From Rhodoferax sp. (lineage in GTDB: Bacteria > Pseudomonadota > Gammaproteobacteria > Burkholderiales > Burkholderiaceae_C), in NCBI GenBank assembly GCA_016790475.1, contig JAEUOX010000176.1, forward strand, positions 1 to 63,441: 63,441 nt of DNA, given 5' to 3'. A program made the translations under genes and the position numbers. The notes under the pieces are model-generated. The model made no database searches. It saw nothing but the letters and a program-made list of their open reading frames with translations, and had not been told where the DNA came from. This document shows, one piece after another, positions 3,205 to 44,931 of the stretch. Within the stretch, counting starts at the first letter, position 1. Every line of letters begins with the position of its first letter.

Positions 3205-3214
3205 GAACCTGCCC

Positions 3215-4239
<1,025 letters not shown>

Positions 4240-4243
<4 letters not shown>

Positions 4244-5052
4244 GCGCCGATCCGGTGCCGCTGATCGAGGTCCAGCAGGTCACGCGCCGTTATGCGCTGG
4301 CGCGCCAGGGCCTGTGGGAGCCGCGCCGCCAGCTGACGGCGCTGGACCAGGTGTCGCTGACGGTCCATGCCGGCCGCACGCTGGGCGTGGTCGGGGAATC
4401 CGGCTCCGGCAAGTCGACGCTGACGCGCTGCCTGCTCGGGCTGGAGCCTGTCGACGGCGGGCGCATCCTGTACCGCGGGCAGGACATCGCGGTGCATGAC
4501 GCGCGCGGCCGGCGCGGGCACACCGCCCGCATGCAGGTGGTGTTCCAGGACCCGAACGCTTCGATGAATCCGCGCATGAGCGTGCACGACATCATTGCCG
4601 AGGGCATGGTGATCCACCAGCGCGAGCTCGGCCTGGACGGGCCGGCCCGCAGCGCGCAGGTGCTGGAACTGCTGGGCCATGTCGGCCTGGGCCGCGACCA
4701 CCTGCACCGCTATCCGCACGAGCTCTCCGGCGGGCAGCGCCAGCGGGTGTGCATCGCCCGGGCCCTGGCGCTGAAGCCGGAGTGCCTGATCCTGGACGAA
4801 CCGACCTCGGCACTCGACGTGTCGGTGCAGGCCCAGGTGCTGAACCTGCTGCACGAGATGCAGCAGACCTTCGGGCTGACCTACCTGTTTGTCTCGCACG
4901 ACCTGGCGGTGGTGCGCTATCTGTGCGACGACGTGGTGGTGCTGCGCGGCGGCAAGGTGGTCGAGGGCGGGCCGGCGGAGCAGGTGTTCACCAGCCCGCA
5001 GGACGACTACACGCGCGCGCTGATTGCGGCGATGCCGGAGGTGGCGTTCTGA
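4240..5052 (+). CDS. ABC transporter ATP-binding protein, DppF/OppF type
   Basis: Second ATPase of the importer, 270 residues. Walker A is GESGSGKS (residues 52-59), the signature is LSGGQRQRV and Walker B is CLILDEPTSALD. The ATG at 4240 lies in an ATGA overlap with the upstream gene; a longer in-frame GTG start at 4204 would add 12 unconserved residues and was rejected. It ends soon after the nucleotide-binding domain (ALIAAMPEVAF), so it lacks the cysteine-rich C-terminal extension of full-length DppF. It closes the operon; I see no strong terminator after it. Confidence 0.92.
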
Positions 5053-5198
5053 TCTGTCGAACTTTCTGACAGCGCTGAATCCAGAGTGGTGACTTCTCCC
5101 GGTGGATCAAGCACTTGCTTTCGAGGCATGCCTTTTGCTCCGGGTCGCGTGGCGCAAAGCGCCAGACCTTTTGCCACCGCCTGTCCCGAAGGAGCCCC

Positions 5199-5768
5199 AT
5201 GATCAAGTCATCCGTTCTGGCCCTGTCCTGTCTGTTGTGTGCCGGCCTGGCGCAGGCGGACACCAACGTCGCGCTGAACAAGGCGGTGACGCTTAGTGGC
5301 ACCGGCTTCGGCCTGGGATGGGGAGGCAATCTGGCGGCTGCCGGCACCGTCACCGATGGCATCTTCCTTGGGAATGGGCATACCTGGGACAACGATACGG
5401 TGTACTGGTCCGGTACCGACGCCATCGTGCAGATCGACCTCGGTGCTTCCTTCAGCATCGTGTCCCTGAAAGTGGAAGCCGACAACAATGACACCTACCA
5501 GGTGGACTACCGGATCGGCGACACCTGGCAGCCTGCCGCGCTGGTACCTGCAGCCTACAACGGTGGTGGATTGCAACTGCGGACGATCCACCTGGACACA
5601 CCCGTCGCGACCAATGGGCTGCGCATCTATTCCACGGGCGGCGATGGTCTGTACTCGGTGTCCGAGTTCCAGGCCTTTGCGGCGCCGGTGCCGGAACCGG
5701 AGACCTACGCGCTGTTGCTGGCCGGGCTCGGCCTGGTCGCGGCGGTGGCGCGGCGGCGCGCGGGCTGA
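5199..5768 (+). CDS. PEP-CTERM protein with F5/8 type C (discoidin-like) domain
   Basis: Exported protein of 189 residues. A signal peptide covers about residues 1-20 (cleavage near AQA/DTN). A discoidin-like carbohydrate-binding domain follows; NVALNKAVT, VTDG and the WSGTDAIVQIDLG segment are family hallmarks. The C-terminal sorting tail is VPEPETYALLLAGLGLVA plus an arginine cluster. PEP-CTERM tails are processed by exosortase, usually in exopolysaccharide-producing bacteria; no exosortase gene lies in this window. The ATG at 5199 is preceded by AAGGAG (5189-5194). An earlier in-frame start at 5115 would precede the signal peptide and is unlikely. Confidence 0.88.
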   Translation: MIKSSVLALSCLLCAGLAQADTNVALNKAVTLSGTGFGLGWGGNLAAAGTVTDGIFLGNGHTWDNDTVYWSGTDAIVQIDLGASFSIVSLKVEADNNDTYQVDYRIGDTWQPAALVPAAYNGGGLQLRTIHLDTPVATNGLRIYSTGGDGLYSVSEFQAFAAPVPEPETYALLLAGLGLVAAVARRRAG

Positions 5769-5992
5769 GACGGCTGAGGACATTCTGCCCGACCATGCCG
5801 CTTTGATGGCTGGCAGCCGGTCCGGGCGGGATCCGAAAACCCTTGTTTGATGTCGGGTTTCTTGACGTGCCGGGTCGTGCCCGGCTGTGGAACCTCATGG
5901 ATTCAACGGCTTGCAACAACGGCACGGGAATTGCCTGGGAGCATTCGGGTTCCTTTACACCGATCGAGCCGCCCCCCCCAAGGAGAATGAGC

Positions 5993-15355: not shown

Positions 15356-16852
15356 ATGCGTATTGCCATCGGCGGTTTCCAGCACGAGACCAACACCTTC
15401 GCGCCCAGCAAGGCGCGTTATGAAGACTTCCTGCGCGACGGAGGCTGGCCCGGTCTGCGCCGCGGCGGCGAGATCCTGGACACCATGGTCGCGCGCAACG
15501 TGCCGATTGCCGGCTTCATCGCGCAGATGAAGGGCAGCCGCCACACGCTGGTGCCGACCGCCTGGGCCACGACCGAGCCCTCCGCCCATGTCACGCAGGA
15601 CGCCTACGAGCGCATCGCCGCGATGATCGTCGACGGCATCCGCGATGCGCAGCCCGATGCGGTCTATCTGGACCTGCACGGCGCGATGGTCGCCGAGCAC
15701 CAGGACGACGGCGAGGGCGAGCTGTTGGCGCGCGTGCGCCGGGTCGTCGGCCCGGACACCCCGATCGTCGCCAGCCTGGATCTGCATGCCAACGTGACCG
15801 CGCGCATGCTGGAGTGCGCTGACACGCTGGTGGCCTACCGGACCTACCCCCATGTGGACATGGCCGACACCGGTGCGCGCGTGGCGCACCTGCTGGTGCA
15901 GCGCGCCGACGGCATGGCGCGGCCGGCCGTGGCGGTGCGGCGGATTCCGTTCCTGATCCCGCTGTCCTCCCAGAGCACGGATCTGGAGCCGACCCGCTCG
16001 GTCTATGCCGCACTGGCCGGTCTGGAGTCGCGCGATGTGCCCACGCTCTCCTTCACGCCAGGCTTCCCGGCGGCGGATTTCCCGGAGTGCGGTCCGGTCG
16101 TGTTTGCCTACGGCAGCAGCAGCGGCAGCGCGCAGGCTGCCGCGGACGCGCTGGCCCGGCAGGTGCTGGAGCGCGAGCCGGCCTTCGACTTGCAGGTGCT
16201 GTCGCCGGAGGCCGCCGTGCGCCAGGCGATGCAGATCGCGCAGCGCGCCACCCGGCCGGTCGTGATCGCCGACACGCAGGACAACCCGGGTGCCGGTGGC
16301 GACTCGGACACCACCGGCATGCTGCGCGCGCTGCTGGCCTGCGGCGCGCAGCGCGCCGCGCTGGGACTGATGGTGGACGCCGAGGCGGCGCGGGCCGCCC
16401 ACGCCGCCGGGGTCGGGCGCAGCATCACGGTCGCGCTGGGCGGCCGCTCCGGCGTGGCGGGCGACAGTCCGTTCACCGGCACGTTCCGTGTCGAGGCGCT
16501 GTCCGACGGGCGGGTGCAGTGCAACGGTCCCTTTGCGCGCGGTGCCAACATGGTGCTGGGCCCCAGCGCTTGCCTGTCGCTCGAGGGCGTACGAGTGGTC
16601 GTCACCAGCCACAAGACGCAGCTGGCCGACCAGGCGCTGTTCCGCTTCGTCGGCATCGAACCGACGGCGCAGGCCATCCTGGTCAACAAGAGCTCGGTGC
16701 ATTTCCGCGCTGACTTCACGCCGATCGCGCAGCAGATCCTGGTCGCGGCGGCCCCCGGGCCGATGATTGCGGATCCGAGCCAGTTCCGCTGGAAGCGGCT
16801 GGCGGCCGGGATGCGGCTCAAGCCGATGGGGGCGGCGTTTCAGGCGCGATGA
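15356..16852 (+). CDS. M81 family metallopeptidase (MlrC-like)
   Basis: A 498-residue protein of the M81/DUF1485 family named after MlrC, the microcystin-degrading peptidase of Sphingomonas. It has the N-terminal motif GGFQHETNTFAP, the probable zinc-site segments DLHGAM and LDLHANV, and the C-terminal domain NMVLGPSACL. The start at 15356 gives the conserved MRIAIGGFQHETN terminus. Most members act on unknown small peptides or amides and often sit near peptide transporters, as here. Its 3' end overlaps the convergent toxin gene by 35 bases. Microcystin activity should not be assumed. Confidence 0.85.
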   Translation: MRIAIGGFQHETNTFAPSKARYEDFLRDGGWPGLRRGGEILDTMVARNVPIAGFIAQMKGSRHTLVPTAWATTEPSAHVTQDAYERIAAMIVDGIRDAQPDAVYLDLHGAMVAEHQDDGEGELLARVRRVVGPDTPIVASLDLHANVTARMLECADTLVAYRTYPHVDMADTGARVAHLLVQRADGMARPAVAVRRIPFLIPLSSQSTDLEPTRSVYAALAGLESRDVPTLSFTPGFPAADFPECGPVVFAYGSSSGSAQAAADALARQVLEREPAFDLQVLSPEAAVRQAMQIAQRATRPVVIADTQDNPGAGGDSDTTGMLRALLACGAQRAALGLMVDAEAARAAHAAGVGRSITVALGGRSGVAGDSPFTGTFRVEALSDGRVQCNGPFARGANMVLGPSACLSLEGVRVVVTSHKTQLADQALFRFVGIEPTAQAILVNKSSVHFRADFTPIAQQILVAAAPGPMIADPSQFRWKRLAAGMRLKPMGAAFQAR

Positions 16853-17294
16853 GGCGCAGGCGCGGGAAGTAGCTGCGGTAGCGTGCCGCGTCGCGCGTCA
16901 GCAGCTGCAGGTTCTGCACCAGCGCGTGGGCGCCGATGTAGAAATCCGGCATGGGCGAGGTCTTGGCGCCGCGCCCCAGGCGGTAGACCTTGAAGGCCTG
17001 CCCGGCCAGGAAAGCGGCGTCCCAGGGCAGCGCCTGGCGCGCCAATGGCAGCCCGGCCAGGGCGGCCTCCAGATCATCTGCCCGCTCAAAGCGGGGACTC
17101 ACCTCGGCCAGGATCAGCGGGTTGATCACCAGAGGGCCTTGCTGCCCCGCCTCCTCCAGATGCGACAGCGACCATTCGGCCCAACGCGGGTCATCCGCCA
17201 GCACGTCGATCAGCACGCAGCTGTCGACCAGCGTGCCGGCCGGGGCAGCGGATGCGAGGTAGCGCGCGTCAGGCTCGCGTGCGGCGCGGGGCAT
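16818..17294 (-). CDS. vapC: VapC-type PIN domain toxin
   Basis: PIN-domain ribonuclease, 158 residues, predicted to cleave RNA when not held by its antitoxin. The N-terminal acidic motif TLVDSCVLIDVLADD, a central Glu in NPLILAEVS and a C-terminal Asp in MPDFYIGAHA make up the usual metal-binding set. It lies 15 bases after the AbrB-type antitoxin gene. The last 35 bases overlap the convergent M81 gene. The start gives a somewhat long N-terminus; a later initiation is possible. Confidence 0.85.
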   Translation of the reverse strand: MPRAAREPDARYLASAAPAGTLVDSCVLIDVLADDPRWAEWSLSHLEEAGQQGPLVINPLILAEVSPRFERADDLEAALAGLPLARQALPWDAAFLAGQAFKVYRLGRGAKTSPMPDFYIGAHALVQNLQLLTRDAARYRSYFPRLRLIAPETPPPSA

Positions 17295-17309
17295 GGGCGG
17301 GCCCGGGCC

Positions 17310-17549
17310 TCAGCCCCGCAGGAAGGCCATGAAGGCGTCGGTGTCCATGCCCTTGAACTGCGGCGCATTGGCAGTGCCGCGGACCCGCTGGAACGCGGCG
17401 CGGATGCCGGTGTCTGCCGGCCTGACCGGGCGGATCACGACCTCACCGCCAGGGCGGATCTCGAACTCGACCTCGCTGTGTGGGTGCAGGCCGGCCTGGG
17501 CGCGGATGGCCTGCGGGATCGTGACCTGGCCTTTGCTGGTGATGCGCAT
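17310..17549 (-). CDS. vapB: AbrB/MazE-type antitoxin
   Basis: A 79-residue antitoxin with an N-terminal swapped-hairpin DNA-binding domain (MRITSKGQVTIPQAIRAQAG) and a C-terminal tail (AFMAFLRG) expected to bind the PIN toxin. The ATG at 17549 follows AAGGAG on the minus strand; the frame extends to 17600 but starts there lack a ribosome site. It precedes the toxin gene in the usual antitoxin-first order. It probably represses its own operon with the toxin at the palindromes just upstream. Confidence 0.88.
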   Translation of the reverse strand: MRITSKGQVTIPQAIRAQAGLHPHSEVEFEIRPGGEVVIRPVRPADTGIRAAFQRVRGTANAPQFKGMDTDAFMAFLRG

Positions 17550-17550
17550 G

Positions 17551-17578
17551 TTCTTACTCCTTCGCGTAAGAATCTTAC
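17551..17578. promoter_or_regulatory. Palindromic operator of the vapBC pair
   Basis: TTCTTAC (17551-17557) and GTAAGAA (17566-17572) form a perfect inverted repeat with an 8-base spacer. GTAAGA-A-TCTTAC (17566-17578) is a second perfect palindrome sharing the middle half-site. The three half-sites overlap the antitoxin ribosome-binding site, as expected for autoregulation. Confidence 0.65.
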
Positions 17579-17609
17579 CCCCGACACCTTGGAGGAGCAA
17601 GCAGTGCGG

Positions 17610-18107
17610 TCAGTCCCCCGCGATCCTGCGGTCCAGCGCCAGGCGCCCGCCGCCGCGGCCCACGAGGTACAGCAATAGCCCGGCCCAGGACAGGTGGGTC
17701 GGCCAGGCGTCCGGGTAGACGAAGACCTGGATCACCAGTGTCATGCCGAGCAGGACGAGCGCCGCGAACCGTGTACCCAGGCCCAGCACGAGCAGCAGCG
17801 GAAACAGATGTTCGGCATAGGCCGCCGCCGGGGCGGCCAGTTCGGGTGGGACCAGCGGCAGCCGGTACTCGGTGCGGAACAGGTCGATGGCGCCCGGCGT
17901 CAGCGTCAGCAGGCCCTCGACCTTGGTGCGGCCGGACTGGAAGAAGATCGCCGCGACCGCGATCCGGTTCACCAGGGCGAGCAGGTCGTGCGGTGTGGCG
18001 GCGTCGAGAAGATGCACCAGGCGGGCCCACCGGCTCCGGGTGCGTGTGGACTGCTGCGTTGACGACGCCTGTTGCTTCATTGGGGGCGAAGAGGAGGCAG
18101 GATTCAT
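17610..18107 (-). CDS. doxX: DoxX family membrane protein of the bufferin operon
   Basis: A 165-residue inner-membrane protein with about four helices (DLLALVNRIAVAAIFFQSG, LFPLLLVLGLGTRFAALVLLG and others) typical of DoxX. DoxX genes commonly close bufferin/Hvf operons, possibly linking them to quinone or redox chemistry, but their role there is not established. The ATG at 18107 overlaps the bufC stop by ATGA; the open frame upstream belongs to a shadow. A later start (MKQQASST) is possible. Confidence 0.85.
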   Translation of the reverse strand: MNPASSSPPMKQQASSTQQSTRTRSRWARLVHLLDAATPHDLLALVNRIAVAAIFFQSGRTKVEGLLTLTPGAIDLFRTEYRLPLVPPELAAPAAAYAEHLFPLLLVLGLGTRFAALVLLGMTLVIQVFVYPDAWPTHLSWAGLLLYLVGRGGGRLALDRRIAGD

Positions 18108-18955
18108 GGTGTTGCTCCGGCAAGGGGGGAGGGAACGGGCACCAGGCGCGTGAGCGCGCCCTGGCGCAGCAGCAGCGCCAGCAGGCCGGCGAGGTCGCAT
18201 GCGGGGTCCAGCGCCAGCGCGGCCTGGGCGGCGGCGGCCAGTGGGGCGCCGCCGGCGCAGGCATCCAGCAGCGCGCATCCGGCCTGCGGCAGCGGATGCC
18301 ACAGCACCTCGGCCTGCGGGCGCGTCAGCAGGGCGCCTTCGCCCTGCCAAGTGAGCTGGTCGCCGGGTCCGGTGCCTGCGCGGCTGGATGCCCAGATGGA
18401 CGGGACCGGCTGATCGGCGAACCAGTGCCAGCGGGCCGCGGGGTGCGGGCGCAGCACGGTGTCGCCCAGCGCGTCCGGCGGCAGCTGCGCCAACCAGGCG
18501 GGGTCGGCGGCTTCCGCATCCGCAGCGCAGTGGCATTGGCTCCAGGCAGCATCCAGCCGGGCCACGCCGCGCAGATAAGGCAGGGCGTTCGCCGCGGCGA
18601 GGTCCGCGATGAAGTCGGCGAACAAGGGCGGCACGGCCGGGTCGACCCCATAGCGGTACAGACGCGGGTCGCGCGGCGGGTGCTGGCGTGCGTACAGCGC
18701 CGCAGCCGACTCGAACCAGACCTTGCCGACGAGGTTGCAGACAGCCGGGTGGTTGGCCTGCAGCGCATCGATGCAGCCCTTCAGGACCGTGTTGCGATAG
18801 ACCGCGAAGGCCGGGTGTCGTGCCCAGGGTGGCGCAGGGTCCGGTTGGTCGAAGGCCTGCTGGTCATCGTGCACCGCTTGCGCAAAGCGCTGCTGAAAGG
18901 GGGCCGGCAGTTCGCCCGACGGTGGCTTGCCCGGGGCCCGGGCTGGCGCGTTCAT
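18104..18955 (-). CDS. bufC: BufC/HvfC family protein (DUF2063 N-terminal domain)
   Basis: Partner protein of the MNIO enzyme, 283 residues. The N-terminal DUF2063 region (FQQRFAQAVHDD, then FAVYRNTVLKGCIDALQANHP) is conserved in BufC/HvfC. In related systems BufC is thought to act with BufB in recognising or modifying the precursor peptide. The start at 18955 (MNAPARAPGK) overlaps the bufB stop by ATGA, and the gene overlaps doxX by 4 bases, so the operon is tightly coupled. The C-terminal half is less conserved and ends in Leu-rich helices. Confidence 0.85.
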   Translation of the reverse strand: MNAPARAPGKPPSGELPAPFQQRFAQAVHDDQQAFDQPDPAPPWARHPAFAVYRNTVLKGCIDALQANHPAVCNLVGKVWFESAAALYARQHPPRDPRLYRYGVDPAVPPLFADFIADLAAANALPYLRGVARLDAAWSQCHCAADAEAADPAWLAQLPPDALGDTVLRPHPAARWHWFADQPVPSIWASSRAGTGPGDQLTWQGEGALLTRPQAEVLWHPLPQAGCALLDACAGGAPLAAAAQAALALDPACDLAGLLALLLRQGALTRLVPVPSPLAGATP

Positions 18956-19857
18956 GCGGCCACCGCCGTTTCGGCAGCGGCGGCATCCGCCAGGGCCACC
19001 GCCGCGGCGCGCTCGGCCATCAGCTCCGCGAACGGCGGCAGCGCCGCATCGCGCTCGATCATCACCGGTCGCTGGCCCGCCTGGGCCAGGAAGTGCCGGT
19101 ACAGCGCCCATACCGGCGGCGCCACCGGCGCATCGTGGGAATCCACCAGCAATGCGGCGCCCCGCGCCGGGTCCTCGCTGTGGCCGGCCAGGTGCAGTTG
19201 CATCACGGCCTGGTGCGGAAACCGGGTCAGGTAGTCCAGCGGGTCAAAACCCAGGTTGCGGGCCGACACGAACACATTGTTCAGGTCGAGCAGCAGGCCG
19301 CAGCCGCTGCGCCGGCTCAGCTCGGCCAGGAAATCCGTCTCACTCCAGGTGTGGCCTTCGAGCGGCAGGTAGTGCGAGGGGTTCTCGATCGCGATGCGCC
19401 GGCCGAGCGCCTGCTGCACCTGATCGACGTGGTCGACGATGCGCTGCAGCGCGGCGTCCGTGCGCAGCACCGGCAGCAGGTCGGGCAGGTAGACACCCGC
19501 CTGCACCGACCAGGCCAGGTGCTCGGAGACCAGCGCCGGCTGGATGCGCTGCGCCAGCGCCGCGAGGCGGGCCAGGTGGGCGGCATCCGGCGGCGCGTCA
19601 CCGCCCAGCGACAGGCCCACGCCGTGCAGCGACACCGGATGGCAGGCGCGGATGCGCTCCAGCCAGGCGATGCGCGGGCCGCCGTCGACCATGTAGTTCT
19701 CGGCGTGGACCTCGAACCACAGGCCGGCGTCCCGCACGGTCCAGGCTTCCTGGAAGTGCTCGGGCTTGAGGCCCAGGCCCACGCCCAGGGCGTTCCGCGC
19801 CGGGGCCGGCCCCCCCGGCAGACGGTGCGGCGGCGAAGGCAACAGCGTGTCGCGCAT
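18952..19857 (-). CDS. bufB: MNIO family RiPP-modifying enzyme (DUF692)
   Basis: Multinuclear non-heme iron oxygenase, 301 residues, of the DUF692/MNIO family. In bufferin systems it converts cysteines of the BufA peptide to thiooxazole-type groups that bind copper. Candidate metal-ligand motifs of the TIM-barrel are all present: FEVHAENY, SLHGVGLS, SEHLAW, IENPSHYL, LDLNNVFVS, QLHLAGHS and VDSHDAPV. The start at 19857 has a GGAGG-like site upstream on the minus strand. It lies 20 bases after bufA and overlaps bufC by ATGA. Confidence 0.92.
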   Translation of the reverse strand: MRDTLLPSPPHRLPGGPAPARNALGVGLGLKPEHFQEAWTVRDAGLWFEVHAENYMVDGGPRIAWLERIRACHPVSLHGVGLSLGGDAPPDAAHLARLAALAQRIQPALVSEHLAWSVQAGVYLPDLLPVLRTDAALQRIVDHVDQVQQALGRRIAIENPSHYLPLEGHTWSETDFLAELSRRSGCGLLLDLNNVFVSARNLGFDPLDYLTRFPHQAVMQLHLAGHSEDPARGAALLVDSHDAPVAPPVWALYRHFLAQAGQRPVMIERDAALPPFAELMAERAAAVALADAAAAETAVAA

Positions 19858-19877
19858 CGGGGGCCTCCGGCTGGCGA

Positions 19878-20168
19878 TCAGGACTTCATCGGCGTCAGCG
19901 AACCCATGCCGTGCGGCGTCTTGATCGACACGCACGTGCCGGCGGGCACGTTCTTCCAGGCGTTCTTCTGGTAGTCCATCTTCGACGTGCCGGCGCAGGT
20001 GGTGCCCGGCCCGGCGGCGCAGTCGTTCTTGCCGGCCATGGCAACGCCGTAGCATTTCTCCATCTTGGCCGAGGCATCGGTCATCGGCTTGCTGTTCTGG
20101 GCGAGTGCGGCGCCAGCCGACAGGGCGGCCAGCGTGAGGGCGGTCAGCGTGAGGTTGCGAGAGATCAT
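19878..20168 (-). CDS. bufA: Bufferin precursor peptide (DUF2282)
   Basis: A 96-residue secreted precursor with a signal peptide (cleavage near ALA/QNSK, residue 23). The mature part has four cysteines, Cys39 (MEKCYG), Cys50 (KNDCAAG), Cys58 (TTCAG) and Cys79 (GTCVS), matching the DUF2282 pattern. In characterised bufferins the MNIO enzyme modifies the core cysteines and the product sequesters copper in the periplasm. It is the first gene of the operon, under a SigF-type promoter at 20230-20256, with AGGAG before the ATG. A Met/His tail ([13 protein letters not shown]) follows the last Cys. Confidence 0.93.
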
Positions 20169-20229
20169 GAATTGCTCCTGATGCAGTGGAAGGTTGAGGC
20201 CGGACCACCATGGCCTGGCTGCTTCCTAG

Positions 20230-20256
20230 TTCGGGCCGGGCGAGCCGCCGGTTACA
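20230..20256 (-). promoter_or_regulatory. SigF-type promoter of the bufferin operon
   Basis: On the minus strand TGTAACC (20256 to 20250) is followed by 16 bases and CGAA (20233 to 20230). This resembles the -35/-10 pair described for Caulobacter SigF (recalled, not searched). It lies about 60 bases upstream of the bufA start. The same motif occurs on the opposite strand for the sigma gene. Confidence 0.75.
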
Positions 20257-20297
20257 GTAGCGGCCACTTTTCAGCCCGGAATCTTTTTGCGTCCGGC

Positions 20298-20324
20298 TGT
20301 AACCGGACCCTCCCTTGGACCGAA
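20298..20324 (+). promoter_or_regulatory. SigF-type promoter of the sigma/anti-sigma pair
   Basis: TGTAACC (20298-20304), 16 bases, CGAA (20321-20324): identical in sequence and spacing to the bufA promoter. The two -35 regions form a 10-base inverted repeat, CCGGTTACAG (20248-20257) and CTGTAACCGG (20297-20306). It implies autoregulation of the sigma gene. Confidence 0.7.
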
Positions 20325-20368
20325 CTACCCCTGCCAGCCCCCGCGACCTGGACGCCCTGGAAGCCCGG

Positions 20369-20893
20369 TTGCGCGGCCAGTTCCTTGCGGGCCTGGCAGG
20401 GGACGCGCAGGCCTACCACGCCTTTCTGGCACAGGCGGCCCGGCATCTGCGGGCCTTCCTGGCGCGGCGCCTGTTCGGCTGGCCGGACGATGTGGAGGAT
20501 CTGGTCCAGGAGTGTCTGCTGGCGATGCACAACCAGCGCCACACCTACCAGAGCGAGCAGCCGCTGACGGCCTGGGTATTTGCGATCGCGCGCTACAAGC
20601 TGATCGACCTGCTGCGCGCGAAGTCGGCGCGAGAGGCCCTGCACGAACCGCTGGAGGACGAGATGGAACTGTTTGCGGAGTCGGTCGATGCGGCGCTCGA
20701 TGCGCGGCATGACCTGGAGACGATGCTGGACGCGCTGCCCGACAAGCAGCGTCTGCCGATCCGCCACGTCAAGCTCGAGGGCCTGTCCGTCGTCGAGACG
20801 GCGCGTCTGACCGGGCTATCGGAGTCGGCCGTCAAGGTGGGCATCCACCGCGGGCTCAAGGCGCTGGCGGCGCGATTCCGGAGCCGCGCATGA
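20369..20893 (+). CDS. sigF: ECF RNA polymerase sigma factor, SigF-like
   Basis: ECF sigma factor, 174 residues from this start. Region 2 includes WPDDVEDLVQECLLAMHNQ and TAWVFAIARYKLIDLLR; region 4 includes LPDKQRLPIRHVKLEG and the helix-turn-helix TARLTGLSESAVKVGIHRG. The first possible start in the frame is a TTG at 20315, but that lies inside the predicted promoter, upstream of the expected transcription start. I prefer the TTG at 20369, with GGAAG just upstream, giving MRGQFLAGLAGDAQAY, a normal ECF beginning. It overlaps the DUF1109 gene by ATGA and is divergent from bufA, its probable target. Confidence 0.88.
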   Translation: MRGQFLAGLAGDAQAYHAFLAQAARHLRAFLARRLFGWPDDVEDLVQECLLAMHNQRHTYQSEQPLTAWVFAIARYKLIDLLRAKSAREALHEPLEDEMELFAESVDAALDARHDLETMLDALPDKQRLPIRHVKLEGLSVVETARLTGLSESAVKVGIHRGLKALAARFRSRA

Positions 20894-21531
20894 AGACCGA
20901 GCACCTGATCGACCTGCTGGCCCAGGGTGTGGAGCCGGTGCGGCCCCATGCGGCGCGGCGCCATCTCGCGCTGGCGCTGGGGCTGGGCCTCCCCCTGTCG
21001 CTGGCGATCGTCCTGTTCGACTACGGCCTGCGGCCGGATCTGGCCCAGGCCGCGCTGCTGCCGATGTTCTGGGTCAAGCTGCTGTTCCCGGCGCTGGTCG
21101 GGCTGACCGGTTTCCTGGCGACGCAGCGGCTGGCACGCCCCGGCGTGGCCGTGGGCGCGCTGAAGGCCGGCTTCGTGCTGCCCATCGCAGTACTGTGGCT
21201 GCTGGCCGCCGTGGTGCTGCTGACGGCGCCGCCGCAGGAGCGCCCGGGCCTGGTGCTGGGCAGCACCTGGCGCAGCTGTGCGGTCAGCATCGGCTTCATC
21301 GCATTGCCGGTGTTCGTGGCCGTGCTGGGGGCGCTGCGCACGCTGGCGCCCACCCGCCCGGCTGCCGCGGGTGCCGCGGCCGGCGCCCTGGCCGGCGGGG
21401 CCGGGGCGATGGTGTATGCGCTGCACTGCCCGGAGCTGCAGGCGCCCTTCCTGGCCGTGTGGTACGTGGCGGGCATCGCATTGGTCGTGCTGGCCGGGGC
21501 GCTGCTCGGGCGCTTCGTCCTGCGCTGGTAG
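20890..21531 (+). CDS. nrsF: DUF1109 anti-sigma factor, NrsF-like
   Basis: Membrane anti-sigma factor, 213 residues, with a short cytoplasmic N-terminus (MKTEHLIDLLAQGVEPV) and about six helices. Two cysteines, Cys130 (WRSCAVSIG) and Cys180 (LHCPELQAP), match the conserved pair reported as needed for signal sensing in Caulobacter NrsF. It would hold the sigma factor inactive until metal or redox stress alters the cysteines. The start overlaps the sigma gene stop by ATGA. Signal specificity is inferred from the neighbouring copper-bufferin operon. Confidence 0.88.
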   Translation: MKTEHLIDLLAQGVEPVRPHAARRHLALALGLGLPLSLAIVLFDYGLRPDLAQAALLPMFWVKLLFPALVGLTGFLATQRLARPGVAVGALKAGFVLPIAVLWLLAAVVLLTAPPQERPGLVLGSTWRSCAVSIGFIALPVFVAVLGALRTLAPTRPAAAGAAAGALAGGAGAMVYALHCPELQAPFLAVWYVAGIALVVLAGALLGRFVLRW

Positions 21532-21561
21532 GGGCCGCCGCGGGCCCCCTGCGCCAAGGGA

Positions 21562-22959
21562 TCAGGCCAGCACCAGCAAGCGCCCGAACGGCGCCACCGC
21601 ATCCCGGTGGGCCTCCGGCACCGCCCACAGCACCGGCGCACGCGGCCGGAAGCGGGCCGGGCCTTCGAGATCGGTCAGCACCACCGTCAGGTCCGGGTCA
21701 TGGCGGTTCGCCTCCTCCAGCAGCGGCGTGAAGTCGGTGCCGCCACCGCCGGTGAACTGCAGGCCGCGCAGATCGCAGGCGCCCGGCTCAAAGTCCGCCA
21801 CGCGCTGCACCCGCTGGTCGCCGATCACCAGCGTCATCGGGGTTTCCAGCCGCCGCGTGATGCTGGCCACCTCGCGCGCGAAGCGCTCCAGCAGCGTGTC
21901 GGCGATCGAGCCAGACACGTCGATGACGATCACCAGCCGCGGCGCCGCCTTGGCCGGCATGTGCCCGGGCTCGAAAGGCATGCGCCGGTGCGGCCCGGCC
22001 CGGCCCTGGTTGGCCAGGTAGGAACGCGCTGGCCGGGACCAGGAGACGTCGCGCTTGCGCGAGAGGCTGCGGGTCAGCTGCACCCGCAGCACCTGTTCCC
22101 ATGGCGTGCGCGTGCGGGGCAGGTCGGCCATCAGGCTGCGCAGCATCGAGTAGGCCCCGTCCCCCGCATGCGCGCGCTGGATGCGCTCGCTCCAGGCCCG
22201 GGACTCGGCCGCCTGGTGCTCCGGGTCCTCCGGGCCGCCCACGCCGGGCTGCAGGTCTTCAATGATGCTCGCGCCCAGCTGCCGGGCGCGGGCGGCGCGC
22301 GGGCCATCGAGGCGCGTCGGGGCAGCACCGGCCTCGGCGTCCGGCTGCGGTCCGCCGCCAGCCTGCGGCTGCGCGTTCGCGCCGCCTCCGCGGCCGCTGT
22401 GGGGCCGCTCGCCCGCACCGGCGCCGCCGCGGCGGCCCTCGCCCGAGCGGCCACGGCTGGTTTCCGCGGACTGGCGGTCGTCCATCGCGTCGTACAGCCG
22501 CTCGACATCCCATTCCAGCAGCGCGGTCTCCACCGGATGGCTGCCGCCCAGCGCCGTCGCGAGCAGCTGGTCCAGCCGGACCGAACCCTGCGGCAGCTCC
22601 AGCCAGGGCAGGTGGTCCAGCGCGCTGTTGACGATCGCGTCGGCGCAGGTGGTGAACAGGCGCAGGTCGACGTCGCCCCGGCGCTGCTGCAGCGCCTGCA
22701 GCCGCTGCGGGTGGCGCAGCGCGATGTGCAGCACCTCGTGCGCGACCAGGCCGGTCTGCAGCGGCAGCGGCAGGCGCTCGAAGCCGGCGCCGTAGCGCAC
22801 GCTCTGCCCGTCGGTCGTGACCAGCGGCGCCGGGTGGCCGGGCAGGTCCGGCTGGTCGCGGTGTTGCACCCACAGCGCCAGCCCGCCGGTGGAAGGGGCG
22901 TACTCCACCATGCGCTGGATGGCCCGCGTGCCGCGGTGGCGGTGGATGTCGGCGCCCAC
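21562..22959 (-). CDS. DUF2201 putative metallopeptidase with VWA domain
   Basis: A 465-residue two-part protein. The N-terminal DUF2201 domain has a zinc-peptidase-like motif HEVLH (residues 74-78). A long low-complexity linker of about 90 residues (Gly, Arg, Ala, Pro) follows. The C-terminal von Willebrand A-like domain carries the MIDAS segment VIDVSGSIADT and later GGGTDFTPLLEEA. Such proteins are normally encoded beside a MoxR-type ATPase, as here; ATPase and VWA partner probably act together in protein maturation. The start is GTG, immediately after the ATPase stop (TGA-GTG). The substrate is unknown, and it is uncertain whether the HEVLH site is catalytic. Confidence 0.85.
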   Translation of the reverse strand: MGADIHRHRGTRAIQRMVEYAPSTGGLALWVQHRDQPDLPGHPAPLVTTDGQSVRYGAGFERLPLPLQTGLVAHEVLHIALRHPQRLQALQQRRGDVDLRLFTTCADAIVNSALDHLPWLELPQGSVRLDQLLATALGGSHPVETALLEWDVERLYDAMDDRQSAETSRGRSGEGRRGGAGAGERPHSGRGGGANAQPQAGGGPQPDAEAGAAPTRLDGPRAARARQLGASIIEDLQPGVGGPEDPEHQAAESRAWSERIQRAHAGDGAYSMLRSLMADLPRTRTPWEQVLRVQLTRSLSRKRDVSWSRPARSYLANQGRAGPHRRMPFEPGHMPAKAAPRLVIVIDVSGSIADTLLERFAREVASITRRLETPMTLVIGDQRVQRVADFEPGACDLRGLQFTGGGGTDFTPLLEEANRHDPDLTVVLTDLEGPARFRPRAPVLWAVPEAHRDAVAPFGRLLVLA

Positions 22960-24060
22960 TCAGCCCTCCCGGCTGCGGCGCTCGGTGTAGCGGCGGTAGG
23001 CCGGGCTGTCCAGGATCGTGGTCTCCAGGCCGGACTCCAGCGCCTGGCGCATCAGTAGCTCCATCGCCAGCGTCTGCGCCTCGCGCACTGGCAGCGGGGT
23101 CTCGCTGCGCGTCTCCGGCAACTGGTCGAGGATCTCGAGCGCGCGGGCGAGTGTCGGTGCGTCACGGCTGGCCGCCAGCAGGCCGTAGACCATCCCGTAC
23201 AGCGCATCCAGCGAGCGCGGCAGCAGCGCGGTGGTCTCCGCGCCGGGCCGGGCGGCCAGCAGCGCCACCACGTTCACCGCGGACTGCAGCTCGCGCAGTA
23301 CGCCAAAGAATTCGGCCGCATTGGCGGCGCCGATGCGGCCCTGCACGAACAGCCTCCGGGCGTTCTCCGACAGCGGCGCCTTCAGCACGTTCGAGATGTC
23401 CTCCCAGCCGCGCGGGCTGGCGCCCACCAGATGGTCGGCCGCCAGCTGCGCCTGGGTGTCGTCGAGCCGGTCCGGTCGCACGCGCAGGTAGGCCATCACC
23501 TCGGGCGCGAAGCCCTGGGCCACCGCATGGTCCAGGAAGGCGTCGATGACGGTCTGCACGTTGAAATGGAACATATGGTCCGCCAGTGCGGTGCCCATGT
23601 CGTGCGACACCGCGCCATGGAAGCTGGCGTTGCCGGCCGCCACCACCTGCCAGCCGTCCGGTAGCCGGTAATGCCCGACGCGCCGGTCCAGGATCAGCGA
23701 ATAGGCCGAGATCTGCAGCCGCTGGTCGGCGGCCGTCAGTTCGTCCAGGAACAGGATGCCGGCCGGCGTGTCGGGCGCCGGCAGGAACTCCGGCGGGAAC
23801 CAGACCGTCTTGGCCTGCGTGTCGTCTGCATAGATCGCGCCGCGGATGTCGACCGGCTCGATCGTCGTCAGCCGCAGGTCCACCAGTGGCACGCCGAAGT
23901 GCGCCGCCACCTGCCGCACGACGGAGGACTTGCCGACGCCGAGCGGGCCCCACAGCATCGTGGCGCGCCGGCGCAGCACCGGGTCGGCGTACTGCTCGAT
24001 CAGCGCGGCCTTGGTGGCTGCGATCGAGACCGGCGGGATGTTCATCGGGTTGCCGTTCAT
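22960..24060 (-). CDS. MoxR-like AAA+ ATPase
   Basis: AAA+ ATPase of 366 residues. Walker A is GPLGVGKSS, Walker B is GILFLDELTAAD and sensor 1 is VVAAGN. The early DLRLTTIEPVDIRGAI segment is typical of MoxR-type ATPases paired with VWA proteins. The ATG at 24060 (MNGNPMNIPP) overlaps the upstream gene stop by ATGA. The large open frame beyond it is a shadow of the frameshifted neighbour. Likely role: ATP-driven remodelling of a client with the DUF2201/VWA protein. Confidence 0.88.
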   Translation of the reverse strand: MNGNPMNIPPVSIAATKAALIEQYADPVLRRRATMLWGPLGVGKSSVVRQVAAHFGVPLVDLRLTTIEPVDIRGAIYADDTQAKTVWFPPEFLPAPDTPAGILFLDELTAADQRLQISAYSLILDRRVGHYRLPDGWQVVAAGNASFHGAVSHDMGTALADHMFHFNVQTVIDAFLDHAVAQGFAPEVMAYLRVRPDRLDDTQAQLAADHLVGASPRGWEDISNVLKAPLSENARRLFVQGRIGAANAAEFFGVLRELQSAVNVVALLAARPGAETTALLPRSLDALYGMVYGLLAASRDAPTLARALEILDQLPETRSETPLPVREAQTLAMELLMRQALESGLETTILDSPAYRRYTERRSREG

Positions 24061-25060
24061 GCGGATCCTTCGGTGGCAGGCACGGTGCGCGGCGTGCGCC
24101 AGCGGGGTTGGGTCAGGCGGCGCGGCAGCGGCGGAATCTCGAAGCGGGGCAACTCCTGCAGCATGAAGGCCACGCCGATGATCGCGATCGGTGCGTAGTG
24201 CAGCGTCATCCAGATGCCCGGGTCGACGTTCGGCGCAATGCGCGGCAGCAGCAGCGTGCCGCCCAGCATGCCCAGCGCGGTGAAGGTCGGGATCAGACGG
24301 CGCAGCACCGAGCTCCAGCGGGCCCAGACGAAACGCGCATGAAAGCGCTGCGGCGGCTCGGACAGCACACTGGCCAGGTGCCCGGCTGCGCGCTCCACCG
24401 ACTGCTCGGCCGCGCGGGTCCGCGGCGGGCCCTTGCCGCGCAGCCGCATCCGGGTGGTCCAGCGCTGGTTCTCCTGGGGCACCAGCCGGGCCCAGTTCCA
24501 GCCCAGCACGGCCAGCAGGTCCTCCGGCAGGTGGGCCTGCTCGCCGGGCGCGGCCTGCAGCACCAGATCGGCGGCCGCGCCGCGCAGCGACAGGATCTCG
24601 AAGCCCGGCGTGAAGCCCTCGACATGCACGACCGCCCGGCACAGCGCCGGCTCCTCGACGACACCGTCGGCGAAAGAATCGAACGCGTAGCTGCGGGCGA
24701 TGGCATAGCCCGGGCCCACGCCAGGTGGCGCTCCGGCGCCACCACATCGAAGCGCGCCAGCAGATCCGCCGGGTGCGCGCCGCGCGCCTCCAGCGTAGCC
24801 TGCAGCCCATCGAAGCCGGGCAGCGCGCCACTGAGCTGGCGCGTCAGCCGGAAGCTGCCGATGCCCAGGCTCTCCAGCGTCAGTGTCTCGCGCAGTGTCG
24901 GGGCGCCCGGCAGGTCCGGCAAGGGGCGATCGACCGGCTTGAACATCACCTTGCGCGCGGTGCGGTCGGAGCCGGCCAGGTCGACCTGCTGGCCCTGGCG
25001 CGCGAAGGGCTGGACCAGCGCGATGATTTCATGGTGGGTCAGGGGTGGTGCAGTGGCCAT
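24057..25060 (-). pseudogene. Membrane protein of the MoxR/VWA cluster, frameshifted
   Basis: Two overlapping frames together make one protein. The N-terminal part starts at 25060 (MATAPPLTHHEIIALVQPF) and reads well to DVVAPE. The C-terminal part is in another frame (PPGVGPGYAIARSYAF onward) and runs to 24057, ending with two hydrophobic segments (LIPTFTALGMLGGTLLLP, YAPIAIIGVAFMLQ). A single missing base between about 24712 and 24745 would join them into roughly 330 residues. No known domain is recognised. It overlaps the ATPase gene by ATGA and follows sulP closely, so it belongs to the cluster. It could be a true pseudogene, a sequencing error or a recoding site; I cannot tell which. Confidence 0.7.
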
Positions 25061-25094
25061 GCGCAGACAGGCGGGATGTCAGCCAAATTCTGCC

Positions 25095-26894
25095 TCATGC
25101 TGCCAGGGTGGCGTCCGATGCGGGCCTTTGGCGGCACGGGTGGAAGATCCGCGCCGTGCAATTCCGGCAGACCTCCGCGTTCAGCCGCCCGACCAGGATG
25201 CCGAACACATCGTCACCCAGCCGGAAGAAGTTGTCCTCGCCGATCTCGTCGGCGACGCCGCTGCGCCGCAGCATCTCCATCGGCTCGTTCTTCAGGTTGA
25301 ACAGGTAGAGCGCACCACCGAGCGCGCGGCGCCGGCGGGCCTCCTGGCCCAGCAGGTGGGCGCCGGCCAGGTCGACGAAGTTGATGCCGGAGGCGACCAG
25401 CAGCACATGCCGGTGTGCCGGGTTCCGCTCGTCGATGGCCTGCAGCGCCTCCTGCAGATGCGTCACCGCGCCGAAGTAGATCGAGCCGTTGAGCCGCACC
25501 ATCTTCAGCTGCGGGCAGTCCGGCAGGCCGGTGTCGGTGCTGAAGCCGAGGATGTGCTGCGGGTCGGCCGGCTTGACGTCCTCCAGCGGCGGGCGGGAGG
25601 TGCGGTTCAGGTAGAGCATCAGCGACAGCAGCACGCCGATGTAGATCGCATACTCCAGGTTCAGCGTCAGTGTCGCGACGAAGGTCGCCAGCAGCACGCC
25701 GGTCTCGGCCCGGCTGGTGCGCAGGATCTCGGCGATCTGCGCCCGGTCCACCAGGCCCCAGGCCACGACGAACAGGATGCCGGCCATCGCCGGCAGCGGC
25801 AGGTAGGCCGCCAGCGGCGCCAGGAAAAGCATCACCAGCAGCAGGAACACTGCCGACAGGATGGCTGCCATCGGTGTGCGGGCGCCGGCGTCGTAGTTCA
25901 GCCCGCTGCGGTTGAAGGAGCCGCTGCAGGCATACCCGGAGAAGAAGGCCGCCGCCAGGTTCGACAGCCCCTGGCCGATGAACTCCTGGTTGCCGTCGAT
26001 GCGCTGGCCGCTCTTGAGCGCGACCGCCCGCGAGATCGACACCGCCTCGGTCAGCGCCAGCACCGCCACCGCCATCGCGATCGGCGTGATCTGCCGGATC
26101 GCCTCGATCGAGAGATCCGGCGCCGACAGCGGCGGCAGGCCGATCTGCAAGGCCCCGATGCTGCCGATGCCGGTGCGCTGCACGCCGAACAGGTGGTTCA
26201 GCAACGCCGCCAGCAGGCTACCTGCCAGCAGGCCGGCAATCATGTGCGGAAACCGCGGCCACCAGCGGCGCGACAGCACGCTGCAGGCGACGGTCAACAG
26301 CGCCACGGACGTGATGTACGGGTTGATCGCGCTGAGCTGGTGGGCCAGCGCATCCAGCACCTCCCAGACCGACGCACCGCGCGCCACCGTGATGCCGAAG
26401 AAGTTGCGCACCTGGCTGCTGGCGATCAGCACCGCGGCGCCGGTCGTGAAGCCGACGACCACGGTGTGCGAGACGAAGTTCACCAGCGTGCCCATCCGCA
26501 GCAGGCCCAGCAGCAGCTGGAACACGCCGACCAGCAGCGTCAGCGTGAGCACCAGCCCGACATACTCCGGGCTGCCGGGCGGGGCCAGCGGGCTCATCGT
26601 CGCGAACACGACGATCGAGATCGCGGTGGTCGGCCCGGACACCAGATGCCAGGAGGACCCCCACAGCGCCGCGATGATGGCCGGCAGCATCGCGGCATAC
26701 AGGCCGTACTGCGGCGGCATGCCGGCGATCGTGGCGAAGGCCACGCCCTGCGGTACCAGGACCAGCCCGCCGGTCAGCCCGGCAATCGCATCGGCGCGCA
26801 GGGTCTGCCGGTTCAGCAGCGGCCACCAGCGCAGGAAGGGCAGCAGGCGCCACCACCAGCTCGGATCGCCGGTGCGCGGGGACAGGGCTTGCAC
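25095..26894 (-). CDS. SulP family anion transporter with STAS domain
   Basis: Inner-membrane SLC26/SulP transporter, 599 residues. The early segment AGLTGGLVLVPQGVAFATIAG is a SulP signature, about 10-14 helices follow, and a STAS domain occupies about residues 450-570 (KMVRLNGSIYFGAVTHLQEAL, then ASGINFVDLAGAHLL). The start is GTG. Family members carry sulfate, bicarbonate or dicarboxylates; the substrate cannot be told here. A Cys pair (VCRNCTARIFHPC) near the C-terminus is unusual. It lies upstream of the frameshifted membrane gene on the same strand. Confidence 0.92.
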   Translation of the reverse strand: MQALSPRTGDPSWWWRLLPFLRWWPLLNRQTLRADAIAGLTGGLVLVPQGVAFATIAGMPPQYGLYAAMLPAIIAALWGSSWHLVSGPTTAISIVVFATMSPLAPPGSPEYVGLVLTLTLLVGVFQLLLGLLRMGTLVNFVSHTVVVGFTTGAAVLIASSQVRNFFGITVARGASVWEVLDALAHQLSAINPYITSVALLTVACSVLSRRWWPRFPHMIAGLLAGSLLAALLNHLFGVQRTGIGSIGALQIGLPPLSAPDLSIEAIRQITPIAMAVAVLALTEAVSISRAVALKSGQRIDGNQEFIGQGLSNLAAAFFSGYACSGSFNRSGLNYDAGARTPMAAILSAVFLLLVMLFLAPLAAYLPLPAMAGILFVVAWGLVDRAQIAEILRTSRAETGVLLATFVATLTLNLEYAIYIGVLLSLMLYLNRTSRPPLEDVKPADPQHILGFSTDTGLPDCPQLKMVRLNGSIYFGAVTHLQEALQAIDERNPAHRHVLLVASGINFVDLAGAHLLGQEARRRRALGGALYLFNLKNEPMEMLRRSGVADEIGEDNFFRLGDDVFGILVGRLNAEVCRNCTARIFHPCRQRPASDATLAA

Positions 26895-34786: not shown

Positions 34787-34918
34787 GTAATTCTTCACGT
34801 CGGGCCCCTGTCCAGGGCTGGCGAAGGCCTGCGCGGCGGTCGATAATCCGGCAACAATCCATTACAGGTCGTGCGCCGGCGCAAGCTGGCGGGCGGCCGG
34901 TGCCCTCTGGAGCCGACC

Positions 34919-37900
34919 ATGCAACCCATCCGCGCCCTCCCGGCCCGCTCGGCCACCGCTGCAGCCGCAGCACTCCTGCTGGCCTTCGGGCCGGCGGCCT
35001 GGTCCCTGCCCCAAGGGGCCCAGGTCATCCATGGCCAGGTGGGGCTGAGCCAGCCCGCCGCCGGGCAGCTGCAGATCAACGCGTCCAACGGCGCGATCAT
35101 CAACTGGCAGCAGTTCAACGTGGGTGCCGGGGAGCTGACCCGCTTCGTGCAGCCTTCGGCCAGCAGCGCGGTGCTCAATCGGGTCACCGGCGCGGGCGCC
35201 TCGCAGCTGCTGGGGCAGATCCAGGGCAACGGGCGGGTGTTCCTGATCAACCCGAGCGGCATCGTGGTCGGTGCGGGCGCCCGGATCGACACCAACAGCT
35301 TCATCGCATCCACGCTGGACATCGCCGATGCCGACTTCCTGGCCGGGCGGCTGCGCTTCCTGGCCGGCGCCACGGCCGGCAGCGTGCGCAACAGCGGCAT
35401 CATCTCCGCCGGCCCGGGCGGCCGGGTCGCGCTGATCGCGCCGGACATCGAGAACAGTGGCATCATCCAGGCGCCCGGCGGCCAAATCCTGCTGGCCGCC
35501 GGGCGGCGCCTGGAGCTGGCCAGCATGGACCTGGAAGGCGTCACCTTCGAGGTGCAGGCGCCCACCGATTCGGTGCTCAATCTGGGCCAGCTGCTGGCCG
35601 ACAACGGCGCCGTCCAGGTGTTTGCCGGCACGCTGCGCCACAGCGGAGAGATCCGCGCCAACCGCCTGGTGCAGGACGCCGACGGCAGCATCCGGCTGGT
35701 CGGCAGCCATGAGGTCACGCTGACGTCCGACAGTGTCACCCGCGCCGACGGTCTGGCCGGTGGAAGCATCACGATCCGCACGACGCGGGGCGACACCCGG
35801 GTGGAAGGCCAGGTGTCGGCCACCGGCAGCGGCGGCCAGGGCGGCCAGATCCATCTGCTGGGCGAGCGCGTCGCCGTCGGCCAGGCGGTGGTGGATGCCT
35901 CCGGCAGCAGCGGCGGTGGCGCGATCCTGGTCGGGGGCGACTACCAGGGCGCAAATCCCGCGGTGCAGAACGCCAGCCGCGTGGCGGTGGGTGCCAATGC
36001 AGTGCTGCGGGCGGACGCCACGGTACAGGGCGATGGCGGCCGCGTCATCGTCTGGGCCGACCAGAACACCCGCTTCGCCGGGCACCTGAGCGTGCGCGGC
36101 GGGCCGGAGGGCGGCGATGGCGGCTTCGCCGAGGTATCGGGCAAGGAGCAGTTGGCCTTCAGCGGCACGGCAGACCTGACCGCCCCGGCCGGCCGGGCCG
36201 GCAGCCTGTTGCTGGATCCGCTCGACATCGTCGTGGCCGCCACAGGTGGCGTGCTGGAATCCGCGCTCGACGAGTTCGCCGACTTTGCCTCGAACATCGT
36301 GACGATCTCCCCGGCCGCGATGGCGGCGGTCGGCGGCACGGTCGTGCTGCAGGCCGCGCGCGACATCTATTTCAACGACGCGGTAACGCTGTCGACTCCG
36401 GGCGCGGGGCTGACGGTCATGGCCGGGGGCGCCAGCGCCACCGGGGGCCAGATCTACCTCGATCATGGCATCGTGACGACCGGCGGCGTCGTGACGATGC
36501 GGGGCACGACGCTGACCGGTGCGGGGACGATCAGCACGAACGGCGGCGCGGTCGATCTGCAGTTCACCAGCAGCTTGAATTACAACGCACTGGTCAGCTC
36601 TGGTGGCGGCGCCGTGACGGTGAGTACGCCGAACAGCTCGATCAACAGCCTGCAGGTGCAGGCCGGCGCCGGGGCGATCAGCGTCAGCGGGCGCAACGGC
36701 GTCCTCAACAGCACGATCGGCGGTACCGGCGCGGTGGCGGTCACCTCCAGCAACGGCGGCCTGAACAACAATGGCGTGACCGGCGGCACCGTGACGTTGC
36801 AGGCCGCCAGCAGCATCAGCAATGTGTCCGTGAATGCGTCGGACCGGGTTGACGCGACGTCCACCAACTCCAGCATCTCGCTGAACAACCGCAACAGCCA
36901 GCCGCTGCGGCTGGGCTCGGTCACCGCGGCCTCCAGCCTGAGCCTGTCCTCGGACGCCGGCTTCGTGCAGGCGGCGGGCGGCCTGCTCACATCGCCCTAC
37001 GTATCGCTGTACGGCTACCAGTCGGGGGCGACCTTCGGCAGCGTGGCGGCACCGCTTTCCATCGCGTCGCCCCGCCTGAGCCTGTCCGGCATGGGCGCGG
37101 CCGCGCATGTGGCTTTCTCCGGCAGCCCGACGCTGACGCAACTGGCGTTCGAGGGCACGGTCGCCGCCATCGGCGCCAGCACGGTCAGCGGTGCGGCCAA
37201 CCTGAGCGCGCTCAGCCTGGGCGCTGCCGGCGGCGTGCTGCAGGTGTCCGCGACCAGCTCGGGTGGCCTGGGCAGTGGCTTCTCGATCAGCACGAACGAC
37301 GGTGGCATCCATGCCACGACGCTGGATCTCCCGGGCGCCGCCGTCAGCCTGTCGGCAGAGGGCCCTGTAACGCTAGGCACCATGACCGGGGCCAGCCTCG
37401 ACATCAATGCCCAGGGCGCGGTGACCATCACCTCGGCGACCACCAGCGGCGGCGGCGGCATCGAGGTCAACACCGGCAGTTGCAGCTCCGGCTATTCGGT
37501 GTGCACCGGGGTCAGCCCGATCACCGCCGGCAGCCTGGTGACCACAGGTGGCGGCAGCGTCACCCTGCGCACCTACGACAGCGGCAATGTCGACGTCACC
37601 ACGATCACGTCCTCCGGCTCCGTGTCCGTACAGGCGGGCACGCAGTACACCAACTACGCCGAGTACGTCGGGTATCCCAACGGCTACAAGGAGTACGTCA
37701 CCACCAACCAGGTGACGCTCGGCACGGTGACCGCGCAGGGCTCGGTCTCGCTCTACAACCAGGGCGATGGCAACCTCACGATCGCGCAGAACCTGGTGGC
37801 CACGAACGGCAGCGTCTACCTGTCTGCCGGTGCCAGCTACAACGACGACGGGCGCTACGACACACCCGACCGGCTCACGACCACCATCGTGTCCACGGCC

Positions 37901-43444: not shown

Positions 43445-43457
43445 CGGGAGACCTTCC

Positions 43458-44906: not shown

Positions 44907-44931
44907 AGACGACCCAAGAAGGCACCGACCC

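Follow-up and report, generated by a model that had tools for sequence, protein, structure and literature searches.

The window analysed here, a stretch of 63,441 nucleotides from Rhodoferax sp. (contig JAEUOX010000176.1), carries six genes with open reading frames between positions 17610 and 21531, where a bufA-bufB-bufC-doxX operon lies divergent from sigF-nrsF. This locus is an intact and ordinary Buf1 (bufferin-1) module under SigF/NrsF-type control, i.e., a new example of an already known kind. A first-pass annotation of the same DNA had placed a four-cysteine DUF2282 protein (BufA), an MNIO enzyme (BufB), BufC, and DoxX on one strand and an extracytoplasmic function (ECF) sigma factor with a two-cysteine DUF1109 anti-sigma factor on the other, and this gene content is borne out by Pfam matches over cut-off for each of the six genes, including PF06532 for the anti-sigma factor, and by an NF009188 match for the sigma factor (Table 1). 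The idea that some of the genes might be broken was dropped, since the frames are open; moreover, ATGA overlaps join bufB to bufC, bufC to doxX, and sigF to nrsF. BufA contains Cys39, Cys50, Cys58, and Cys79 and, as judged by eye, a Sec-type signal peptide. Among the NCBIfam models, BufB exceeds the cut-off of the bufferin-maturase equivalog NF050167 MNIO_BufB (362.5 bits vs. 310) and SigF that of the subfamily model NF009188 (293.1 bits vs. 250); BufA and BufC match none of these models, and DoxX stays under the cut-off of the HvfX equivalog (39.4 vs. 80). The Pfam domain score of NrsF is 230.5 bits, compared with a gathering cut-off of 26.8, and the solved MNIO relatives of BufB include 3bww, 8hci, and 7dz9. 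Throughout the assembly (GCA_016790475.1; 4.77 Mb, 517 contigs, 89.8% complete), DUF2282, MNIO, and NrsF are each matched only once, at the bufferin locus.

Table 1. Features of the bufferin locus and the stretch that holds it (window coordinates).
Feature	Position	Strand	Description
bufA	20168-19878	minus	DUF2282 precursor, 96 aa; PF10048 E=9.8e-26
bufB	19857-18952	minus	MNIO maturase, 301 aa; PF05114 E=8.6e-98
bufC	18955-18104	minus	DUF2063 partner protein, 283 aa; PF09836 E=1.7e-17, over cut-off
doxX	18107-17610	minus	DoxX-family membrane protein, 165 aa; PF07681 E=1.7e-17, over cut-off
sigF	20369-20893 with probable TTG start (174 aa); listed open reading frame from TTG 20315	plus	ECF sigma factor; NF009188
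nrsF	20890-21531	plus	DUF1109 anti-sigma factor, 213 aa; PF06532 E=2.3e-68
Predicted SigF/ECF16-type promoter facing bufA	20255-20230	minus	exact GTAACC-N16-CGAA
Predicted SigF/ECF16-type promoter facing sigF	20299-20324	plus	exact GTAACC-N16-CGAA
8.3-kb stretch holding the bufferin locus	16840-25142		between mlrC and a sulfate-permease-type gene; not in congener G004

The proteins of the module were aligned with their relatives (BufA, BufB, and NrsF; only matches above a score and length limit, the window among them). The four cysteines of BufA are identical in all 120 aligned sequences, 16 His/Asp/Glu/Asn positions of BufB in all 109, and Cys130 and Cys180 of NrsF occur in 56 of 56. The invariant BufB positions fall within blocks common to solved MNIO proteins such as 3bww, and several of the 16 presumably bind iron. 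Comparison with the literature draws on parts of a set of papers (PMC3511200, PMC8224329, PMC6180224, PMC10304878, PMC12452194, PMC12668002, PMC3420878, PMC8315932, PMC7563307, PMC11647585, PMC11022561, and PMC13192273). In the anti-sigma factors described there, the two cysteines are likewise 50 residues apart (C131/C181 in Caulobacter and C129/C179 in Bradyrhizobium OsrA, compared with 130/180 in the window).

Between bufA and TTG 20369, two back-to-back promoter-like sites lie inside 95 bp, both of which correspond to the Caulobacter SigF consensus (PMC3511200). This predicted pair is an addition to the first-pass annotation, whose reader missed the control sequences; like the genes, their open frames, and the invariant residues, the pair and its conservation are observed directly. 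Conservation was assessed in 28 loci with divergent bufA and sigF, i.e., 27 relatives and the window, which together give 56 promoter sides. These loci come from a set of 145, with a BufA score >60, a SigF score >100, and <900 nt between the two (L115, for example, with a BufA score of 56, is excluded); copies of the window (L001, L002, L003, L005, and L124) were removed and the window was counted once (L145). At a spacer of 16, the motif is exact on 38 of the 56 sides, has one mismatch on 11, and is worse on 7, whereas spacers of 14, 15, 17, and 18 give exact motifs on 0, 1, 3, and 0 of the same sides, and shuffles that keep the dinucleotides give a mean of 0.017 sides and a maximum of 1 (300 rounds). 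In 13 of the 28 loci, the match is exact on both sides, and in 12 on one side; it should be noted that the loci are related to each other, and these counts are not independent events. In the assembly, the exact pattern has three matches, of which two are at the locus and the third lies inside a permease-like open reading frame on the opposite strand (the reversed control pattern has four). The earlier description of the locus as a self-contained module thus holds, given the single DUF2282, MNIO, and NrsF matches and the position of two of the three exact SigF-type sites between bufA and sigF. A scan of this 89.8%-complete assembly with the exact and relaxed patterns did not find a wider SigF regulon.

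The motif mostly goes with the sigma gene, since an exact copy lies no more than 400 nt upstream for 10 of 15 bufA genes with a divergent sigF, 3 of 10 whose sigF has another position in the locus, and 0 of 54 with no sigF. This count covers 79 bufA genes of 80 named loci (genes with <200 nt upstream were skipped); "no sigF" means none above a score of 100 in the stretch, some stretches being short, and tails were assigned to classes here by a rule slightly unlike that behind the tail classes discussed below. As a separate observation, the Pseudomonas conjugative plasmid NZ_CP083747.1 (L165) carries at 2480-5816 bufABC-doxX divergent from nrsF, with both SigF-type motifs; nrsF has no adjoining sigma gene there, and no sigF match occurs in 8.3 kb.

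The plus-strand promoter also bears on the start of sigF. TTG 20315 is overlapped by this promoter, the -10 element being downstream of the codon, and was rejected as the start because it would lie outside the message if the promoter is used. The start is probably TTG 20369, which is the only in-frame ATG, GTG, or TTG from the -10 element to the conserved domain and has GGAAG five nt upstream. Similarly, an in-frame start exists between the sigma-side motif and the domain in all 27 loci (of 28) with the relaxed motif, and the start of B. japonicum ecfF was likewise corrected once its transcription start had been mapped (PMC3420878).

The layout, the sigma control, the promoter, and the product class are all known in print. 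The first-pass annotation had supposed that the product was described nowhere, which is not borne out, as the layout and control have been reported (PMC3511200, PMC8224329, PMC6180224, and PMC10304878), and so has Buf1 chemistry (PMC12452194). In Caulobacter crescentus, sigF-nrsF lies beside an operon (CC3254-CC3257) for DUF2282, DUF692, DUF2063, and DoxX proteins (PMC3511200 and PMC8224329), and the promoters are of the GTAACC-N16-CGAA form (PMC3511200). Whereas only the one locus was found in the assembly of the window, C. crescentus SigF has further targets, namely a second DUF2282 operon and an msrPQ-like pair. Sinorhizobium meliloti, an alphaproteobacterium, has an ECF16 sigma/anti-sigma pair, rpoE7-ecfR7, with a DUF692-DUF2063 operon (SMb20530-20527), and TGTAAC...CGAA promoters are given for both units (PMC6180224); the printed sites diverge in the fourth base group of the -35 element (GTAACA). 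With Buf1 bufferins, the locus shares a four-cysteine DUF2282 precursor, an MNIO enzyme, a DUF2063 partner, and DoxX; Buf1 clusters with sigma and anti-sigma genes are known, and as far as they are described, they differ from the locus in sequence divergence only (PMC12452194). Captophorins (fontiphorin, oxazolin, and gonophorin) also combine an MNIO enzyme with a DUF2063-type partner and are credited with 5-thiooxazoles and a copper role; however, their precursors have EGKCG-type repeats, unlike the compact four-cysteine DUF2282 protein of the window (PMC12668002).

The same divergent layout occurs in Cupriavidus metallidurans as gigPABT and rpoQ-rsqA (PMC10304878, PMC11022561, and PMC13192273). 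The gap between gigP and rpoQ of strain CH34 holds exact GTAACC-N16-CGAA sites at 5047-5022 on the minus and 5082-5107 on the plus strand of the extracted locus (L164), and the distance from the sigma-side motif to the conserved sigma domain is approx. 190 nt, more than in the other loci (56 nt in the window). Direct control of gig by RpoQ is called undemonstrated in print, and this exact motif pair, a sequence feature, supports such control as a prediction. Among the matches listed for a search with GTAACC at the start of a word, PMC3511200 is the only paper on this sigma family; the Cupriavidus sites may already be included in ECF classification work.

Taken as a whole, the locus is likely to be a self-contained Buf1-type module for metal stress at the envelope. 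In the unstressed cell, SigF would be held by the membrane protein NrsF, with Cys130 needed for holding, and periplasmic thiol-reactive stress, most likely excess copper, would act on NrsF, for which Cys180 is the likely input. Freed SigF would then fire both back-to-back promoters and thus sigF-nrsF and bufA-bufB-bufC-doxX. BufB together with BufC would convert the central Cys50 and Cys58 of BufA into thiooxazoles, a disulphide would link Cys39 and Cys79, and the peptide, once exported, would chelate copper; we infer that chelation would lower the signal and close a feedback loop. The cysteine modification, the metal, and the sensing step are proposed by analogy with relatives in print. In Buf1, the central cysteines are the modified ones (PMC12452194), and in Caulobacter, comparable genes depend on SigF and are induced by copper, to which a sigF mutant is sensitive. 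Of the first-pass proposal of copper sequestration under SigF/NrsF control, SigF/NrsF-type control is backed by the promoter pair and the family matches; the choice of copper as the signal is carried over from the relatives.

Several points weigh against this reading. NrsF does not reach the stricter NCBIfam equivalog NF042994 (157.6 bits vs. a cut-off of 300) and is therefore treated as a member of the family and not filed under that equivalog. The relaxed pattern GTAACS-N16-CGWA has five matches in the assembly (two at the locus) compared with 18 for the reversed control; those outside the locus are L004 in a permease-like open reading frame, L147 in an ilvC-like one (by eye, on the opposite strand), and L146. 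Of the 56 sides of the divergent loci, 7 lack a good site at a spacer of 16, three of these 7 being exact at a spacer of 17, and an exact site is absent altogether from 3 of the 28 loci. The link between the motif and sigF is not absolute, because in Variovorax L166 the motif lies upstream of bufA and neither sigF nor nrsF has a match in 9.4 kb. According to the published accounts, Caulobacter sigF is only partly SigF-dependent, without strong autoregulation under metal stress; C. metallidurans rpoQ-rsqA is RpoD-dependent, and gig expression survives deletion of rpoQ; and gig adds little to the copper resistance of this species.

What doubt remains is mostly about the signal and the metal. Chromate, cadmium, H2O2, and HOCl are also in print as signals for this sigma family, and with the same parts and switch, the natural signal could be an oxidant or thiol stress in general (H2O2, HOCl, or metal-glutathione complexes), in which case copper would be one trigger of several and the peptide and DoxX would mainly shield the envelope. 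In Bradyrhizobium, a sigma factor of the group does respond to H2O2 and singlet oxygen, and in Brucella one responds to HOCl; the anti-sigma factors there have the same two cysteines, and metal-glutathione complexes have been proposed as the inducer in Cupriavidus. Nonetheless, this explanation appears unlikely: the accounts of the Bradyrhizobium and Brucella systems used here mention no bufferin operon, whereas in Caulobacter, where such an operon is present, the genes that depend on SigF are reported as induced by Cr, Cd, and Cu and not by agents that generate reactive oxygen species. There is a still smaller chance that the BufA peptide serves mainly another soft metal, such as gold, silver, or cadmium, and not copper. 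The gig genes of Cupriavidus respond to Au, Ag, and Cu, and MerC-bufferin fusions are in print (PMC12452194); however, the Caulobacter sigF mutant is described as copper-sensitive, with no increase in sensitivity to chromate or cadmium, and the module contains no other pointer to another metal. Finally, the 17-residue tail of BufA, with one His and two Met, is very improbable as an extra metal site that makes a distinct product, as HGxGSL is present in only 1 of 118 tails, that of the window, with His at the position where the class consensus has Lys and the next position variable. The Met/His tail was thus rejected as a conserved metal site.

The tail belongs to the KTPKGxGSLTP class, and KTPxGxGSLTP is the usual signature of one BufA class. 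Many residues occur at the position after the Lys, among them M, T, F, Y, N, H, and V. Among the 118 tails, which come from 119 distinct BufA open reading frames, 18 contain some His, 63 some Met, and 12 both, a few of these being over-long readings by the simple rule used. The relatives (L006-L145) show two main tail classes, KTPKGxGSLTP and TSPTGxGQL, and sigF is present in the locus for 21 of 28 GSL-class bufA genes, 2 of 42 of the GQL class, and 2 of 9 with other tails; no functional conclusion is drawn from this, because tail class is confounded with taxonomy.

The bufferin locus is patchy in its distribution and appears, from genome comparison, to occupy a variable site. The 8.3-kb stretch that holds it comprises an AbrB/PIN pair, the bufferin locus with sigF-nrsF, and an AAA/VWA pair. 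The site looks variable because 52 nt lie between the flanking mlrC and sulfate-permease blocks in congener G004 (L162), and 1287 nt of other sequence separate them in congener G001 (L155); congener G002 has mlrC, with no permease match within the 4.5-kb locus. BufB relatives occur in four of seven genomes of the genus, i.e., in the window's genome and in three others at 46-51% identity, and NrsF occurs in 37 of 200 genomes of the family. A plasmid search with the 4-kb locus matched 368 records, none covering at least 80% of it. Directly downstream of doxX, an AbrB/MazE-type antitoxin-like gene is followed by a PIN-domain gene (16818-17600, minus strand; VapBC-like). At 21562-24033, the minus strand encodes a DUF2201 metallopeptidase/VWA-like protein and an AAA ATPase; none of the other six genomes of the genus contains a match to the DUF2201 protein. 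Farther along the window (34871-46521, plus strand), an open reading frame of 2857 aa that resembles a secreted filamentous adhesin precedes FecR-like and ShlB-like open reading frames, which by eye suggest a two-partner secretion locus.

Bufferin loci are common, but there are few hosts in which their regulation has been elucidated. Within this context, the conserved back-to-back promoter pair offers a sequence test for SigF control of bufferin loci and makes the question of whether RpoQ fires gig directly in C. metallidurans testable at two short sites. It is tempting, if rather speculative and perhaps somewhat less probable than even, to view the locus as a portable one-target circuit, in which SigF would have no targets but its own gene and a single bufferin operon, all of the circuit would lie in exchangeable DNA, and the peptide would silence its own sensor by removing the metal detected by Cys180 of NrsF; on the same promoter reasoning, RpoQ would fire gig directly in Cupriavidus. 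With few other SigF-type sites in the assembly, the locus would be a simple one-input, one-output circuit.

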